A DNA stretch of 64,000 bases, from positions 4,534,501 to 4,598,500 of the forward strand of contig RHDP01000001.1 in the NCBI GenBank assembly GCA_003725745.1, in the 5' to 3' direction. The notes under the pieces are model-generated. The model saw nothing but the letters and a program-made list of their open reading frames with translations. It was not told where the DNA came from and searched no databases. The stretch comes from Streptomyces sp. I6. Its GTDB lineage: Bacteria; Actinomycetota; Actinomycetes; Streptomycetales; Streptomycetaceae. The position numbers and the translations under genes were made by a program. Below are positions 3,400-60,448 of the stretch, piece by piece; the stretch's first letter is position 1, and every line of letters begins with the position of its first letter.

Positions 3400-5573
3400 G
3401 TGACAGCAGCAACGCACTCCTCTCTCTTCCCTCCGGTCCCCGAGTCCGCGGACGCGGTGCTGGACGGGCTCGACCCCGAGCAGCGGGCGGTCGCGACGGC
3501 CCTGACCGGCCCGGTGTGCGTCCTGGCCGGCGCCGGCACGGGCAAGACACGGGCGATCACTCATCGCATCGCCTACGGAGTGCGGGCCGGGATACTCCAG
3601 CCGGCGAGTGTGCTGGCCGTCACGTTCACCAACCGCGCGGCGGGGGAGATGCGGGGCCGGCTGCGGCAACTCGGCGCGGGGGGTGTGCAGGCCCGGACCT
3701 TCCACTCGGCGGCACTGCGGCAGCTCCAGTACTTCTGGCCGAAAGTCGTCGGCGGGGAGGTGCCGAGGCTGCTGGAGCGCAAGATCCAGCTCGTCGCCGA
3801 GGCGGCCGCTCGCTGCCGTGTCAGGCTCGACCGCAATGAGCTGAGGGACGTGACCAGCGAGATCGAGTGGGCCAAGGTCACCCAGACCGTCCCCGCCGAC
3901 TATCCGGCCGCCGTCGCCAAGTCCCTCAGGGACGCCCCGCGAGACCCCGCGGAGATCGGCCAGATCTATGCGCTGTACGAGCAGCTGAAGCGCGACCGCT
4001 CGATGATCGACTTCGAGGACGTCCTGCTGCTCACGGTCGGCATCCTCCAGGACCGGCACGACATCGCCGACCAGATCCGCCGTCAGTACCAGCACTTCGT
4101 GGTGGACGAGTACCAGGACGTGTCGCCGCTCCAGCAGCGGCTGCTGGAGCTGTGGCTCGGAGACCGGGAGAGCCTGTGCGTCGTCGGGGACGCCAGCCAG
4201 ACGATCTACTCCTTCACCGGAGCCACCCCCGACCATCTGCTGAACTTCCGCACCCGCCACCCCCAGGCGACGGTGGTGAAGCTCGTGCGCGACTACCGGT
4301 CGACCCCGCAGGTGGTCCATCTGGCCAACGGCCTGCTGGGGCAGGCTCGCGGCCGTGCCGCCGAGCACCGGCTGGAGCTGGTCTCGCAGCGCGACCCCGG
4401 CCCCGAGCCGTCCTACACGGAGTACGCGGACGAGCCCGCCGAGGCCGAGGGCACCGCCGGCCGGATCCGCGATCTGATCGCCGCGGGCGTCCCGGCCGGT
4501 GAGATCGCCGTGCTGTTCCGGGTCAACGCCCAGTCCGAGGTCTACGAGCAGGCCCTCGCCGACGCGGGCGTGCCCTACCAGCTGCGCGGAGCGGAGCGGT
4601 TCTTCGAACGCGCCGAAGTCCGGGAGGCCGGCGTCGCCCTCCGGGGAGCGGCCCGCGCCGGGGGGAACGACGCCCTGCTGGACGACGCGGAGGACCTGCC
4701 GTCGCAGGTCCGGGCGGTGCTGTCCACCAAGGGCTGGACCGACGAGCCGCCCGCCGGTTCGGGTGCGGTGCGCGACCGCTGGGAGTCGCTGGCCGCCCTC
4801 GTCCGGCTGGCCGAGGACTTCGCCCGCGGCAGGCCCGGGGCCGGACTCGCCGAGCTGGTCGCCGAGCTCAACGAGCGCGCCGCGGCCCAGCACGCCCCGG
4901 CCGTCCAGGGGGTCACCCTGGCCTCGCTCCACTCGGCCAAGGGACTGGAGTGGGACGCCGTGTTCCTGGTCGGGCTCACCGAGGGGATGATGCCGATCAC
5001 CTATGCCAAGACCGAGGAGCAGGTCGAGGAGGAGTGCCGGCTCCTGTACGTCGGTGTCACCCGCGCCCGGCTCCATCTGTCGCTGTCCTGGGCGCTGTCC
5101 CGCGCACCCGGGGGACGTGCCTCCCGACGCCCCACCCGCTTCCTGAACGGGCTCAGGCCCGGCTCCGCGGCCTCCGGCCCCGAGCGGCCGGCGGTGCCGG
5201 AGGCGTCGAGCGCGGTGACACGGGTCGGCGGAAGCGCCGCGGCCCGGTGCTGTGCCGGGTGTGCGGCAAGACGCTGACCGACGCCGGCGAGATGAAGCTG
5301 ATGCGCTGCGAGGACTGCCCCTCCGACATGGACGAGGCGCTGTACGAGCGGCTGCGTGAGTGGCGCTCCGGGCAGGCCAGGGAGCTGGGCCAGCCGGCGT
5401 ACTGCGTCTTCACCGACAAGACCCTCATGGCGATCGCCGAGGCCGTGCCCGGCAGCGAGCGGGAGCTTGCCGCGATCTCGGGCGTGGGGGGACGCAAGCT
5501 GGACCGTTTCGGCACCGATGTCCTGGCCATCTGTGCAGGCCAGGAGGTCGGGAGTGGCGAGGAGGACGACTGA
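3400..5573 (+). CDS. uvrD2: ATP-dependent DNA helicase UvrD2 (frame break about 5150-5235)
   Basis: Superfamily 1A helicase. The GTG at 3400 gives MTAATHSSLF. The Walker A AGAGTGKT lies at residues 43-50 and the DEYQD box near residue 235; QTIYSF and a late VTRAR complete the helicase motifs. After the frame break a tetracysteine module (CRVCGK ... MRCEDC) and a C-terminal HRDC domain follow. This is the arrangement that defines mycobacterial UvrD2 as distinct from UvrD1. Restored length is about 724 residues. The break corresponds to one missing base; if it were real, the tetracysteine and HRDC parts would be lost. Neighbours mrx1 and whiB7 match the mycobacterial order. Likely role: unwinding in DNA repair. 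Confidence 0.93.
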
Positions 5574-5587
5574 TGAGAACTCGTCGA

Positions 5588-5626
5588 GAAAATAGTTTGC
5601 GCGCGCGCCAGTCGTCCCCATAGGTT
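5588..5626 (+). promoter_or_regulatory. WhiB7-type promoter of the whiB7 leader
   Basis: TTGCGC (5597-5602) and TAGGTT (5621-5626) are separated by 18 bases. Immediately upstream is an A/T island, GAAAATAGT, unusual in this GC-rich DNA. WhiB7 proteins bind an AT-rich stretch just upstream of the -35 of sigma-A promoters, so this fits autoregulation. The start of transcription would be near 5633, giving a leader of about 600 bases. Confidence 0.65.
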
Positions 5627-5738
5627 CTTAACCACGGGAACGGCGGCTTCTCCGAAGCCCTGTTGCCGTGCTGTACTTATCCGAATACGCGTGATCGGCC
5701 CCGGCCGGTCCCCGAGACGCCGAGAGGAGGCGATTCCA

Positions 5739-6071
5739 GTGATCAGCATCAACATCAGCATCATCCGCGCCACCGCCAAAGTGACCGATCGCTCGGTCGT
5801 CTCCGCCTGCTCGCTCGGCCTCTCCGGTTCGGCGTTCATTGGCACTGGTCTGCCCTGCTCCGCGGCTGCCCGTCCGGTCGTCCTCGGCGCTGGTCTGCCC
5901 GTCCGGGAGCGCAATGAGCGACCGACCAGGGCACTGGAAGCAGCAGCAGTGGCGGCAGAGGCCAAGGCCTATGCCCTCGAGGCGGCCGGTGCCGGAACCC
6001 AGAAGCAGACGACGCAGCACCACACGATGTGGGCCTTCCGTGGGCTCGAACCCTGGAGTGATCCAGCCTGA
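5739..6071 (+). CDS. upstream ORF in the whiB7 leader
   Basis: The GTG at 5739 follows an excellent GAGAGGAGG site with 8-base spacing and opens a 110-codon frame, MISINISIIRATAKVTDRS, ending at TGA 6069-6071. The stop lies inside a 9-bp hairpin (6066-6084) and about 25 bases before the intrinsic terminator at 6096. That geometry suggests a sensor ORF for ribosome-mediated attenuation: antibiotic-stalled ribosomes would change leader folding and let transcription reach whiB7. Leader ORFs controlling whiB7 are described in actinobacteria. The peptide has no recognisable domain, and its sequence may matter less than its translation. Confidence 0.6.
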   Translation: MISINISIIRATAKVTDRSVVSACSLGLSGSAFIGTGLPCSAAARPVVLGAGLPVRERNERPTRALEAAAVAAEAKAYALEAAGAGTQKQTTQHHTMWAFRGLEPWSDPA

Positions 6072-6084
6072 TCCAGGATCAGGC
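6066..6084 (+). promoter_or_regulatory. hairpin at the upstream ORF stop codon
   Basis: GCCTGATCC and GGATCAGGC form a perfect inverted repeat around one base; in practice the inner pairs open to make a loop. The stop codon of the leader ORF is within the 5' arm, so a terminating ribosome would mask it. Probably part of the attenuator switch. Confidence 0.55.
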
Positions 6085-6095
6085 CGGCGCCTTCA

Positions 6096-6138
6096 GGGCC
6101 GCGGAACCCCACCAGGGATCCGCGGCCCTTCTGTTTTC
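6096..6138 (+). terminator. intrinsic terminator (attenuator) before whiB7
   Basis: A perfect 10-bp stem, GGGCCGCGGA (6096-6105) with TCCGCGGCCC (6119-6128), and a 13-base loop are followed by TTCTGTTTT. The U-rich tail is rare in this genome and makes this the most textbook terminator in the window. It lies about 105 bases upstream of the whiB7 start and inside its leader, so it should be conditional. Confidence 0.85.
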
Positions 6139-6240
6139 CCGATGAGGAAACAGAGCGAAGGGGCCTCGGGACCAGCAAGACCCGGTACCAACCGAAGCCC
6201 GGTCCACCGACCGGACAGAACAGACGAGGAAGACACCACC

Positions 6241-6609
6241 GTGCAACTCGAAGCGCACGCCCCGTCCGTACCGCCTTCCCAGACGATCCCCCCGCCCGGC
6301 CCCACGGAGGACTCCACCTTGACCCCCCTCACCACGCTCACCGCGCTCGACGACGCCATCGAGAGCCTCGGCGCACCCGTCCCCTGCCGTTCCTACGACC
6401 CGGAGGTCTTCTTCGCCGAGTCGCCGGCGGACGTCGAGTACGCCAAGTCCCTCTGCCGCACCTGCCCGCTGGTCGAGGCCTGCCTCGCCGGTGCCAAGGA
6501 GCGGCGTGAGCCCTGGGGCGTCTGGGGCGGAGAGCTCTTCGTCCAGGGTGTGGTCGTCGCCCGCAAGCGGCCGCGTGGCCGCCCGCGCAAGAACCCGGTA
6601 GCGGCATGA
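6241..6609 (+). CDS. whiB7: WhiB7/WblC redox-sensing transcription factor
   Basis: Iron-sulfur WhiB-family regulator that activates intrinsic antibiotic-resistance genes by binding region 4 of the principal sigma factor. The start GTG 6241 gives 122 residues. Cluster cysteines are C49, C72, C75 and C81 (CRTC plus two single cysteines). The WhiB turn GVWGG is at 93-97, and the C-terminal AT-hook RGRPRK at 112-117 separates WhiB7 from other WhiB proteins. Position next to uvrD2 is the same as in M. tuberculosis. Expression is probably set by the attenuator leader and AT-rich promoter described above. Confidence 0.95.
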   Translation: MQLEAHAPSVPPSQTIPPPGPTEDSTLTPLTTLTALDDAIESLGAPVPCRSYDPEVFFAESPADVEYAKSLCRTCPLVEACLAGAKERREPWGVWGGELFVQGVVVARKRPRGRPRKNPVAA

Positions 6610-6932
6610 GCGCGCATCCGGGAACCGTCGACCGACCCCTTACGCACGATCCCCAGAAGCAGGCCCCGATGACCTCTTCCACCAGCGAGCCGTCCGGTTC
6701 CGCGACCCCGTACGTCACCACCATCGGCGCGAACGCCTCGCGTCAGAACAGGACCCGTGAGATGCAACTCATCCCAGAAGCCCTGGCCCGTGCGCATATG
6801 CACGAGCGCCTGCGCGAAGCGGAAGCGGAGCGCCGGGCCGTGCGCCTGGCGGCCGCTCGGCGGATGCAGCGGCGTGCCGAGCGCGCGTCCCTGCGCGCCC
6901 GCCGCGCGCTGGCCATGGCCGTCATGCAGTAG
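6606..6932 (+). CDS. conserved basic hypothetical protein downstream of whiB7
   Basis: I do not recognise a domain. The frame starts at ATG 6606, overlapping the whiB7 stop (ATGA), and encodes 108 residues. An internal ATG at 6669, giving 87 residues, is an equally plausible start because both have weak ribosome sites. The C-terminal half is one long basic, alanine/arginine-rich predicted helix (RMQRRAERASLRARRALAMA). Tight overlap suggests co-transcription with whiB7. A strong hairpin follows the stop. Confidence 0.6.
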   Translation: MSAHPGTVDRPLTHDPQKQAPMTSSTSEPSGSATPYVTTIGANASRQNRTREMQLIPEALARAHMHERLREAEAERRAVRLAAARRMQRRAERASLRARRALAMAVMQ

Positions 6933-6941
6933 TCCGGCCGT

Positions 6942-6968
6942 CAGGCCTCCGCAGTCGACGGAGGCCTG
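6942..6968 (+). terminator. hairpin after the whiB7 operon
   Basis: CAGGCCTCCG and CGGAGGCCTG form a perfect 10-bp stem with a 7-base loop just downstream of the stop at 6932. Confidence 0.65.
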
Positions 6969-6991
6969 GCCGTCCCCATGCCCGGCGCCTC

Positions 6992-7025
6992 CCGTGGGGG
7001 CCGGTCCTCGGACCGGCCCCCACGG
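6992..7025. terminator. second strong hairpin
   Basis: A perfect 16-bp inverted repeat starts CCGTGGGGGCCGG, with a 2-base centre. It stands just before the small zinc-ribbon gene and probably reinforces termination of the whiB7 transcript. Confidence 0.6.
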
Positions 7026-7066
7026 TGCGTTGTCCCGTCCCGAGCGCCGCCCGGGGTTATCGTCAC

Positions 7067-7267
7067 GTGGTGGACGAACAGACTCATCACCCTGCCCAGC
7101 CGGGTGCCGAGAACGTCGTGTGTTCCCGGTGCGGCGCGGTCGCCGAGGGTACTCCTCCCACCTGGACCTGCTCCGTGGAGAGCGGTCGCCGGCACTACTT
7201 CTGCGAGGAGTGCGCTCGGGCCAACATCAGGTCCATCGAGGGACGGCTCGACTCGTCCTGGTGGTGA
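7067..7267 (+). CDS. small protein with two CxxC pairs (zinc-ribbon-like)
   Basis: About 66 residues from tandem GTG codons at 7067/7070 (MVDEQTHHPAQ or one codon shorter). CSRCG near the N-terminus and CEECA near residue 49 can form a four-cysteine zinc site. TWTCS supplies a further cysteine. Function unknown; small four-cysteine proteins of this kind are common hypotheticals in Streptomyces. It converges on the AarF kinase gene. Confidence 0.65.
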   Translation: MVDEQTHHPAQPGAENVVCSRCGAVAEGTPPTWTCSVESGRRHYFCEECARANIRSIEGRLDSSWW

Positions 7268-7363
7268 CCGGCCCCTCCTGCCGGGCCATCCGGATCCCGG
7301 CCGGACGTTCTCCGCCTGCCGGGGGACTGGCCCGGGCCGCCTCCGGGGACGCGCCGGCGCAGG

Positions 7364-8767
7364 TCAGACCTCCGCCGCAGCGCCGCCGGTCTGGGCCCCG
7401 GCCTCGCTGCCGGTCTCGGCGCCGGCGAGGAAGCCGGGCAGCCAGGTCTCGAGTTCGTCCCGGAGCCGCACGGTCGCGTTCAGCTGGCAGAGCACGCCGA
7501 TGGTGCTCAGTGTCACACGGTGGATCAGCAGATAGGACGGCGGCAGATTGAGCTGCTTGCCCAGCTGGTGTGCGGGGGAACGGGGATCCGCTATCCGAGC
7601 CGCCTGGGTGCGCATCCAGCCGCGGGTGAAGGTGAACCGGTCCGCTTCCGCCGGTTCGATGATCGGCAGCAGATACTCCAGCACCGCGTCCGGGTCGAGG
7701 TCGACCGACTCCTTGACGAAGCCCTCCTCGCTCAGCACCCCGTAGACCGCGTCGGCCTCCCCCGCCAGAGTCATCCGGAGCGAATCGCCGATCGTCCGGG
7801 GAAGTCCGCCGGGCAGCCGGTCCACCGTGCCGAAGTCCAGGACGCCGAGCCGCCACCGGGTCGGATCCCCTTCGCCCTCCTCCGCACCGGCCGGGGAGAG
7901 CAGCCGGAAGTTGCCCGGATGCGGATCGGCGTGCAGCAGCCCCGTCCGGGCGGGGCCGGAGAACAGGAACCTGGCCAGCAACTGGCCCGCACGGTCCCGT
8001 TGTTCCTGGGTGCCGTCGCTGATCACCTCTGCCAGCGGAGTGCCGTCCATCCACTCGGTGACCAGCACCTGGTCGGCCTGGTGGACCACGTCGGGCACCA
8101 CCACATCGGGGTCGCCCGCGAACTCCGCGGCGTGCTCCCGCTGGGCCCGGGCCTCCAGCGCGTAGTCCAGCTCCTCCGACACCCGGTCGTGGAGTTCGGC
8201 GATCAGCGGCTTGACGTCCATTCCCGGGATCAGCGGTCCCAGCAGCCTGGCGAACCGGCTCAACTGGGACAGGTCCGAGAGCAGTGCCTCTCCTGCCCCC
8301 GGATACTGGACCTTCACGGCGACCTCGCGCCCGTCGTGCCAGACCGCTCGGTGGACCTGGCCGATGGACGCGGCCGCCGCGGGCCTGTCGTCGAACTCCA
8401 GGAAGAGTCCGCGCCAGTCCCCGCCCAGCCGCTCCGCCAGCGCCTCGTGGACCGTGCGCGCGGGCATCGGGGGAGCGGCGTCCTGGAGTTTGGTGAGCGC
8501 GGCCCGGTAGGGCCCGGCCACCTCCTCGGGCAGGGCCGACTCGAAGACGGACAGGGCCTGCCCGAATTTCATCGCACCGCCCTTCAGCTCACCGAGCACC
8601 CTGAACAACTGCTCCGCCGTGCGCTGCTGCAACTCGCGCGCCACGAGCTCCGCGGACCTGCCGCCGATCCGCTTGCCCAGGCTCCAGGTGGCGCGGCCGG
8701 CGAAACCCAGTGGCAGAGTGGCCAACTTGGCCGTACGGGTGACCGCCTTCCGGGGAAGATCAGACAT
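7364..8767 (-). CDS. AarF/UbiB (ABC1) family atypical kinase
   Basis: ABC1-family protein with a protein-kinase-like fold; relatives support quinone or lipid metabolism, but the actinobacterial substrate is not known. The start ATG 8767 follows GGAGGGG by three bases. The 467 residues include the KxGQ motif (MKFGQALSVFES), AAASIGQVHRA, the lysine of EVAVKVQYPG, HADPHPGNF and the metal-binding VLDFGTVDRLP. The gene overlaps the stop of the upstream ThiF-like gene by eight bases, so the two are probably translated together. The same family lies next to whiB7-uvrD2 in mycobacteria. Confidence 0.92.
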   Translation of the reverse strand: MSDLPRKAVTRTAKLATLPLGFAGRATWSLGKRIGGRSAELVARELQQRTAEQLFRVLGELKGGAMKFGQALSVFESALPEEVAGPYRAALTKLQDAAPPMPARTVHEALAERLGGDWRGLFLEFDDRPAAAASIGQVHRAVWHDGREVAVKVQYPGAGEALLSDLSQLSRFARLLGPLIPGMDVKPLIAELHDRVSEELDYALEARAQREHAAEFAGDPDVVVPDVVHQADQVLVTEWMDGTPLAEVISDGTQEQRDRAGQLLARFLFSGPARTGLLHADPHPGNFRLLSPAGAEEGEGDPTRWRLGVLDFGTVDRLPGGLPRTIGDSLRMTLAGEADAVYGVLSEEGFVKESVDLDPDAVLEYLLPIIEPAEADRFTFTRGWMRTQAARIADPRSPAHQLGKQLNLPPSYLLIHRVTLSTIGVLCQLNATVRLRDELETWLPGFLAGAETGSEAGAQTGGAAAEV

Positions 8768-60190: not shown

Positions 60191-60448
60191 TCAGGCGCTG
60201 GCGTTGCGCGCCCGGTTGCGGGCGGCGCGGCGCTTCATCGCGCGGCGCTCGTCCTCGCTGAGGCCACCCCAGACGCCGGAGTCCTGGCCGGACTCGAGCG
60301 CCCACTGCAGGCACTGCTCCATGACGGGGCAGCGACGGCAGACGGCCTTGGCTTCCTCGATCTGCAGCAGCGCAGGACCGGTGTTGCCGATGGGGAAGAA
60401 CAGCTCGGGGTCTTCCTCGCGGCAAACGGCGTTGTGACGCCAGTCCAT
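60191..60448 (-). CDS. whiB1: WhiB1/WblE iron-sulfur transcription factor
   Basis: 85 residues from ATG 60448 (GAGAGG upstream), the size of WhiB1. Cluster cysteines C9, C37, C40 and C46; WhiB turn GVWGG at 58-62; basic C-terminus RRAMKRRAARNRARN. WhiB1 orthologues are nitric-oxide-sensitive partners of the principal sigma factor and are essential in mycobacteria. In Streptomyces the gene is called wblE. The neighbour pdtaS is conserved with it. Confidence 0.95.
   Translation of the reverse strand: MDWRHNAVCREEDPELFFPIGNTGPALLQIEEAKAVCRRCPVMEQCLQWALESGQDSGVWGGLSEDERRAMKRRAARNRARNASA

Follow-up and report, generated by a model that had tools for sequence, protein, structure and literature searches.

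Comparative anatomy of a predicted translation-controlled attenuator in the whiB7 leader of Streptomyces

Here we present a base-level anatomy of the leader of whiB7 (wblC) in Streptomyces sp. I6, in which transcription is very probably attenuated under the control of ribosomes translating the leader's own ORF, hereafter the uORF. Analysis of the window, the whole 64,000-nt stretch studied, together with related loci, shows the parts of such a switch, mutually exclusive pairings with their conservation, an open frame whose peptide is weakly selected, and a cluster of alanine codons. Within the 650 bases 5' of the gene, this Streptomyces whiB7/wblC locus carries a promoter, a Shine-Dalgarno sequence (SD), the uORF, a stop-codon hairpin and a terminator, in that order. 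The leader arrangement is real, was rightly interpreted in an earlier sequence-only reading of this DNA, and is already known in kind. What is added here, with no claim that it is unpublished, is the base-level anatomy, the evidence on selection, the alanine cluster and a set of unexplained conserved RNA blocks.

For attenuation of wblC/whiB7 through its uORF, the primary report is that of Lee, Lee and Roe (2022; doi 10.1111/mmi.14834), reportedly on Streptomyces coelicolor. Citing accounts state that translation of the wblC uORF favours formation of a Rho-independent terminator, and that under drugs or amino-acid starvation it is an antiterminator that is favoured (PMC11550727), and place WblC under ribosome-mediated attenuation (PMC12421871, PMC7157823). 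Other papers describe leaders of this kind as typical of actinobacterial whiB7 genes, their antiterminator drawing on sequence of both the uORF and the terminator (PMC10727445), and mycobacterial whiB7 leaders as having a uORF with an SD, a 3' terminator, and read-through on ribosome stalling (PMC4128351, PMC13236596, PMC13393426). According to a 2025 paper, drug-induced stalling inside the whiB7 uORF is still untested (PMC12121999).

The whiB7 gene, its promoter and its neighbours

The gene and the 5' part of its leader consist of the following features.

5588..5626, + strand: WblC-type promoter, with GAAAAT at 5588-5593, -35 element TTGCGC at 5597-5602, an 18-nt spacer and -10 element TAGGTT at 5621-5626
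5645..5659, + strand: hairpin GGCUUC-UCC-GAAGCC near the expected RNA 5' end, from a fold of 5633-6106
5725..5730, + strand: SD AGGAGG of the uORF, 8 nt ahead of GTG 5739
5739..6071, + strand: uORF, with GTG start, 110 sense codons and TGA stop at 6069-6071
6241..6609, + strand: whiB7/wblC, with GTG start, from a Pfam match and relatives

The Wbl gene at 6241-6609 is identified as WhiB7 from its sequence, in line with the name that the sequence-only reading had given to the gene 3' of the terminator. Its product matches the Pfam Whib domain at E 1.7e-14 and, weakly, the AT hook (15.4 bits, under the cut-off of 17.4), with no NCBIfam match at E<=1, and the best 80 named relatives listed are all (80/80) Streptomyces loci. 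The C-terminal RGRPRK, which we take to be a mark of WhiB7, and the leader itself are further grounds for the identification.

Several neighbouring features were also recorded. A 108-aa ORF at 6606-6932, whose ATG overlaps the whiB7 stop (ATGA) and which has no Pfam or NCBIfam match at E<=1, is possibly coupled to whiB7 translation. A second WhiB-like gene lies on the - strand of the window at 60203-60427; it aligns with WhiB7 over 70 residues at 43% identity (E 1.5e-9). One genome of the same genus, G116, has a best WhiB7 match of just 8.5e-10, the sole such case among 121 genus genomes; whiB7 is absent there or lies within an assembly gap. At 3400-5576, a UvrD2-like helicase and its HRDC end are in different frames, a break unique to the window among the 55 loci with both motifs readable (189/244 were unreadable), and an assembly error is possible because the genome scored 87% complete.

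The promoter reads GAAAAT-AGT-TTGCGC-N18-TAGGTT. The TTGCGC-N18-TAGGTT pattern already noticed in the sequence was thus recovered at 5597-5626, where it is preceded by a conserved GAAAAT box. The WblC site is given as GAAAWY three bases 5' of the -35 element (PMC7157823), and a predicted site of this form lies 3 nt ahead of the -35 in the window. In the 7 Mb genome the combined promoter pattern occurs three times, once at the window site, and the backward control gave 0 occurrences. A simple consensus scan reported 0 promoters, so it missed this one. The promoter pattern is conserved in 195 distinct Streptomyces upstream regions, where every column of AAAATAGTTTGC, of CCATAG and of the SD region 5715-5733 shows at least 95% conservation. 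The RNA would start near 5633, and the 5' UTR is about 106 nt with the SD within it. The SD region itself reads AGACGCCGAGAGGAGGCG, and a small CGCC/GGCG hairpin could form around the SD.

Terminator, stop-codon hairpin and antiterminator

Downstream, the leader carries two features near the uORF stop and three segments of a predicted antiterminator.

6036..6043, + strand: antiterminator arm a, UUCCGUGG, uORF codons 100-102, predicted to pair with 6099-6106
6051..6058, + strand: antiterminator arm b, CCCUGGAG, uORF codons 105-107, predicted to pair with 6091-6098
6066..6084, + strand: stop-codon hairpin, 6066-6073/6077-6084, with UGA in the 5' arm, from covariation
6091..6106, + strand: common partner of both arms, CUUCAGGGCCGCGGAA, whose 3' part is the terminator 5' arm
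6095..6137, + strand: intrinsic terminator, 6095-6105/6119-6129, inner pairs 6107-6109/6115-6117, U tract 6129-6137

A Rho-independent terminator is present between the uORF and whiB7. It had been described as a perfect 10-bp stem with a real U tract; the 10 bp, GGGCCGCGGA/TCCGCGGCCC, are there, but the U tract, UUCUGUUUU, is interrupted. With its closing A-U pair the stem has 11 bp, and three more inner bp follow past an A/A mismatch. Folding of the terminator segment 6088-6150 gave z -4.1 (2/200 shuffles equally good) and of 6060-6150 z -5.0 (0/200). A terminator-like hairpin scoring above 35 was found in all 248 Streptomycetaceae loci (225 distinct regions). The simple consensus scan missed the window terminator, its one hit being another site on the - strand. 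As had been proposed, the uORF stop is inside a hairpin, with TGA 6069-6071 in the 5' arm of 6066-6073/6077-6084. The interval from terminator to whiB7 start is 103 nt; a stretch of the GAAGGGGCCTCGGG...CCCGGTACC type at about 6155-6190 is common in relatives, as judged by eye and uncounted.

The RNA ahead of the terminator 3' arm, 6036-6108, folds to an antiterminator of -40.5 kcal/mol, in which UUCCGUGG (6036-6043) pairs with CCGCGGAA (6099-6106) and CCCUGGAG (6051-6058) with CUUCAGGG (6091-6098), both helices lying outside the stop hairpin 6066-6073:6077-6084. In this model, one side of the antiterminator is made of codons of the uORF itself, and folding and comparison agree that the antiterminator shares sequence with both the uORF and the terminator. 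A ribosome mask to 6044 leaves the arm b helix alone (-30.7 kcal/mol), and masks to 6054 and 6060 remove both helices (-24.1 and -21.3 kcal/mol). The whole leader folded from 5633, as the sequence-only reading had recommended, behaved like the short segment in respect of antiterminator and terminator, the antiterminator being formed without a mask over the ORF end and lost with one. Once the terminator 3' arm is present, the terminator forms in all 11 masks shown, and at equilibrium it wins even with the antiterminator arms free, so that the switch must be kinetic. The suggestion that ribosome stalling prevents terminator formation is supported by this exclusive and conserved antiterminator, and for whiB7/wblC that model has already been published.

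Comparison with other leaders, of Streptomyces and beyond, found the parts and pairings conserved in Streptomycetaceae and outside it. In alignment A1 (150 thinned Streptomycetaceae leaders, of 151 left after thinning), 98.1% of cells are paired under the proposed structure, against 33-51% when the structure is slid. Cells changed on both sides number 43, against 8.5 in shuffles (0/500 had as many); 42 of the 43 fall in the stop hairpin, one in arm a and none in arm b. At least eight continuous pairs are kept by arm b in 137/150 leaders and by arm a in 129/150. When 193 distinct Streptomycetaceae leaders were folded in truncated form, the terminator 5' arm paired with uORF RNA above shuffles in every one (193/193), with a mean pairing of 0.96 against 0.38 and a value of at least 0.7 in 189. 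This count used a 15-nt arm; an 11-nt arm, which cut off arm a, reached at least 0.7 in 110/193, against 58/193 in shuffles. If the mask is extended to 14 nt beyond the stop, the short RNA ahead of the terminator 5' arm still pairs with that arm, at a mean of 0.48. Full-length folds show the terminator in 191/193 Streptomycetaceae leaders and 52/61 from other families.

In those other families, pairing of the terminator 5' arm exceeds shuffles in 60/61 leaders (0.71 against 0.36). Arm b occurs there with different sequences and matching partners, GCCTGGAG:CTCCAGGC, GCTTGGAG:CTCCGAGC and CCTTTGAG:CTCAAAGG, and is above shuffles in 49/61 but not in 12/61; the stop hairpin, as CCGGTCT:AGACCGG and others, is likewise above shuffles in 49/61 and not in 12/61. 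Loci taken singly are mostly not significant, the observed pairing being reached by 0/100 shuffles in 10/249 and by at most 5/100 in 55/249. A covariance model built from A1 found one strong site in the genome (4.5e-48), the next hits being the same terminator on the other strand (1.8e-6) and a site elsewhere (0.04). It matched 49 of 60 genomes of the class at E<=0.1, and among the 40/45 best hits outside the genus that were compared with listed whiB7 coordinates, 39 lie directly upstream of the gene, the one in G491 being the exception.

Frame, peptide and codons of the uORF

The 110-codon leader ORF with a good ribosome site, as first read from the sequence, was confirmed: AGGAGG, GTG 5739 and 110 codons make up a 5' leader ORF of predicted translation. 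By the rule of a stop 15-44 nt 5' of the terminator and an SD-like site ahead of the start, a long open uORF was found in 244/244 Streptomycetaceae loci (235 distinct uORFs), with 88-124 codons (median 108) in 204 Streptomyces loci and 98-181 codons (median 116) in 40 loci of other genera of the family. Outside the family, a good terminator was present in 68 of the 86 loci fetched, and 61 of those 68 also had a candidate uORF with an SD ahead of it and its end 15-34 nt 5' of the terminator. Duplicate rows (L031, L113, L114, L115, L119) were removed and loci with a terminator score below 33 or 35 left out; loci L256-L335 partly overlap the remaining ones, collapsing having been limited to identical sequences.

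Across 195 distinct Streptomyces uORFs, the uORF frame has no stops and the other forward frames have 3.5 and 2.5 stops per sequence. One antisense frame has just 0.01, and since it too is nearly stop-free, openness alone is no proof of translation. An overlapping gene was rejected as well, for no other frame on either strand falls below the uORF frame in pN/pS (0.85 vs 0.91-1.04). At this pN/pS the uORF shows almost no codon-position signal, with diversity of 0.208/0.231/0.217 by codon position; whiB7 of the same loci is coding-like, with pN/pS 0.25 and 0.076/0.048/0.208. Within the uORF, pN/pS is 0.92 for codons 2-96 and 0.33 for codons 97-110, with values of 0.64 at codons 68-85 and 0.68 at codons 41-56. 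The frame is thus maintained, and most of its peptide is hardly selected.

The conserved end bears on a different reading, in which the uORF encodes an arrest-peptide sensor, with stalling or dwelling of the nascent C-terminus at a fixed position, like that of erm-type leaders. We regard this as improbable. It would account for the low pN/pS of codons 97-110, conserved as peptide, and for a Pro-Pro among the last five residues of 33/61 uORFs from other families, but the C-terminus is MWAFRG[LP]EPWSDPA in Streptomycetaceae and often AWSPPV in other families, which differ in peptide yet keep the pairings. RNA pairing alone could explain the conservation of codons 97-110, because the same codons form both arms and the stop hairpin. 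The peptide may still help to keep the ribosome at the stop codon.

Apart from its end, the uORF contains stretches conserved as nucleotides, a further hairpin and a cluster of alanine codons.

5777..5796, + strand: conserved nucleotide block 1, from conservation
5840..5858, + strand: conserved nucleotide block 2, GGCACCGGTCTG type, from conservation
5909..5933, + strand: conserved nucleotide block 3, GAGCGACCGA...GGCA, from conservation
5930..5993, + strand: P-mid hairpin, 5930-5937 pairing with 5986-5993, from covariation
5931..5996, + strand: alanine-codon cluster, codons 65-86, 12 Ala/22 in the window
5966..5978, + strand: conserved nucleotide block 4, from conservation

Six uORF stretches pass the conservation threshold, two being the antiterminator region and the other four blocks 1-4, which gave 0, 3, 0 and 0 hits in 68 loci of other families. 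Two similar segments had been noted within the sensor ORF, and both copies of CTGGTCTGCCC are real (5845-5855 and 5890-5900, in the same codon register), but their conservation does not suggest a repeated sensor, as the first lies in the Streptomyces-conserved block 5840-5858 and the second in no block. P-mid is supported by covariation: at one of its pairs, 188 of the 210 sequences placed (of 235 distinct uORFs) have A-U, 15 G-C and 7 another combination, with about three gains or losses of G-C along the whiB7 tree, and 0/300 permutations reach the observed pairing. Candidate helices 18-21:60-62, 17-19:106-108 and 35-37:83-85 (in codons) were rejected, 27/300, 137/300 and 61/300 permutations reaching the observed value; a helix of codons 76-78:97-100 (6/300) is suggestive only. 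In this permutation test, two pair tables were one or more bases out of register. A putative local hairpin at codons 15-21 has a mean predicted pair probability of 0.47 (71 sequences).

Conserved blocks and a covarying hairpin would also fit a metabolite-binding riboswitch, or a protein-bound leader, in which translation of the uORF is incidental. That reading is very improbable indeed: the window region 4500-7500 matched no Rfam 15 family at its curated score (the best match, Guanidine-I on the other strand, reached 21.8 bits against a cut-off of 63), and the long uORF is preceded by an SD in 244/244 family loci.

The one clear feature of codon composition, absent from the earlier reading, is the alanine-rich stretch of codons 65-86. 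In the 195 distinct Streptomyces uORFs it holds a median of 10 Ala in 21 codons (range 7-13), with at least 9 in 174/195; four other 22-codon stretches have medians of 1, 1, 3 and 1 and reach 9 in 0/195. Among 234 distinct Streptomycetaceae uORF peptides, the best 22-residue stretch has at least 10 Ala in 156, compared with 1/90 stretches, 110 residues long, taken from ORFs of the window, and beats residue-shuffled versions in 220; it ends a median of 25 codons 5' of the stop. Outside Streptomycetaceae the signal is weak (at least 10/22 in 9/61; median 6 vs 5 in shuffles). Of the Ala codons within 65-86, 35% are GCA, a codon with a relative use of 5% in ORFs of the window; these GCA codons may be conserved for RNA reasons instead. 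Rare codons are 9.3% in the window's ORFs, 24.9% on average in uORFs and 11.6% in whiB7. Strongly conserved uORF codons number 39, of which 12 are rare in the window's ORFs, five within codons 101-109 and seven elsewhere: CGA61 (192/195), GCA65 (182/195), AAA14, GAT17, GGT37, TAT78 and GGT84. No TTA codon occurs in 244 uORFs.

A codon cluster for a single amino acid is a trait of trp/ilv-type attenuators, and the alanine cluster could be the main sensor, the drug response being a by-product of any stalling. We think such an amino-acid attenuator unlikely. Retention of the cluster in Streptomycetaceae and its GCA excess speak for this reading, but the regulated gene is a drug-resistance regulator and no alanine enzyme, only 9/61 uORFs outside the family reach 10 Ala in 22 residues, and the GCA codons may be RNA-driven. 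Poulton et al. (2024) reportedly concerns whiB7 and alanine starvation in mycobacteria, and is reported to relate the expression of whiB7 to the amino-acid composition of its uORF. A connection between mycobacterial whiB7 and alanine starvation is also stated elsewhere (PMC10727445), a further point for this alternative, and aspC is named as a WhiB7-driven alanine enzyme in M. tuberculosis (PMC13236596).

Proposed mechanism and its relation to known systems

Under the attenuator model that we favour, RNA would initiate near 5633 at the WblC-activated promoter, and a ribosome would load at 5739 and trail the polymerase. A ribosome keeping pace would cover codons 100-110 during terminator synthesis, melt the stop hairpin and hide both arms; the terminator would then fold and the RNA end near 6137. 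If instead the ribosome stalled or slowed short of about codon 95, or were missing, UUCCGUGG and CCCUGGAG would be free as CUUCAGGGCCGCGGAA emerges and would pair with it around the stop hairpin, so that the terminator 5' arm would be taken and the polymerase would enter whiB7. Once transcribed, whiB7 would boost its own promoter. Since the arms are codons 100-107 (with about 12 nt assumed to be covered ahead of the A site), a stall anywhere up to about codon 95 would leave them free, which fits the earlier idea that codons at several positions could report stalling. A shortage of charged alanine tRNA should likewise trip the switch, because a ribosome waiting at the Ala/GCA-rich codons 65-86 would leave both arms free. 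We infer the kinetics of the switch, its indifference to the place of drug stalling, and the sensing of alanine in Streptomyces sp. I6. The leader is probably a reporter of ribosome delay of any kind, and may also sense alanine shortage in particular.

A more speculative extension, which we offer tentatively, is a two-input sensor in which a timer of ribosome progress is combined with the alanine cluster as the strongest nutritional inducer of intrinsic resistance in Streptomycetaceae, and P-mid and blocks 1-4 pace ribosome and polymerase. If the uORF acts as a timer, its length would set the smallest slowdown that flips the switch, so that any delaying drug would be reported without a stall site. 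A toy race model serves as an illustration and not as evidence: slowing the ribosome to 80% speed raised read-through from a baseline of 36% to 86% with 108 codons, but left it at its 30% baseline with 15 codons.

The closest known system is the wblC/whiB7 attenuator of S. coelicolor, which as described shares the gene, the genus, the uORF, the Rho-independent terminator and the antiterminator, and shows the induction on disturbed uORF translation that is predicted here; no difference from it was established, the likeness being one of description and not of base pairs. Those citing accounts, as far as they were available, make no mention of the alanine cluster, the peptide-selection result or the conserved blocks. 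Mycobacterial whiB7 leaders likewise have a uORF with an SD and a 3' terminator, and are described with read-through on stalling and a link to alanine starvation, but differ in leader sequence: two putative mycobacterium-like loci (L147 and L152, the genus being a guess) have uORFs of 53 and 65 codons and arms GTCCGTGG:CCACGGAC. In the ARE-ABCF attenuators are5sc and tiaA of S. coelicolor, a leader-ORF ribosome decides between terminator and antiterminator, as is proposed for whiB7, but their uORFs, MLV and a 9-residue peptide, act through start-codon stalls (PMC12421871), compared with about 108 codons for the whiB7 uORF. Attenuators of the trp/ilv type, such as ilvB1 of M. tuberculosis (PMC13236596), share the exclusive terminator and antiterminator and the run of codons for one amino acid; whiB7, in contrast, is no biosynthetic enzyme, and its uORF is much longer.

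This locus acts as the master switch for intrinsic ribosome-drug resistance in actinomycetes, and its leader element is found across the class by the covariance RNA model. The attenuator as read here predicts that there would be no single drug-stall site, that any delay before about codon 95 would elicit a response, that sensitivity would vary with the length of the ORF, and that alanine shortage would elicit a special response.
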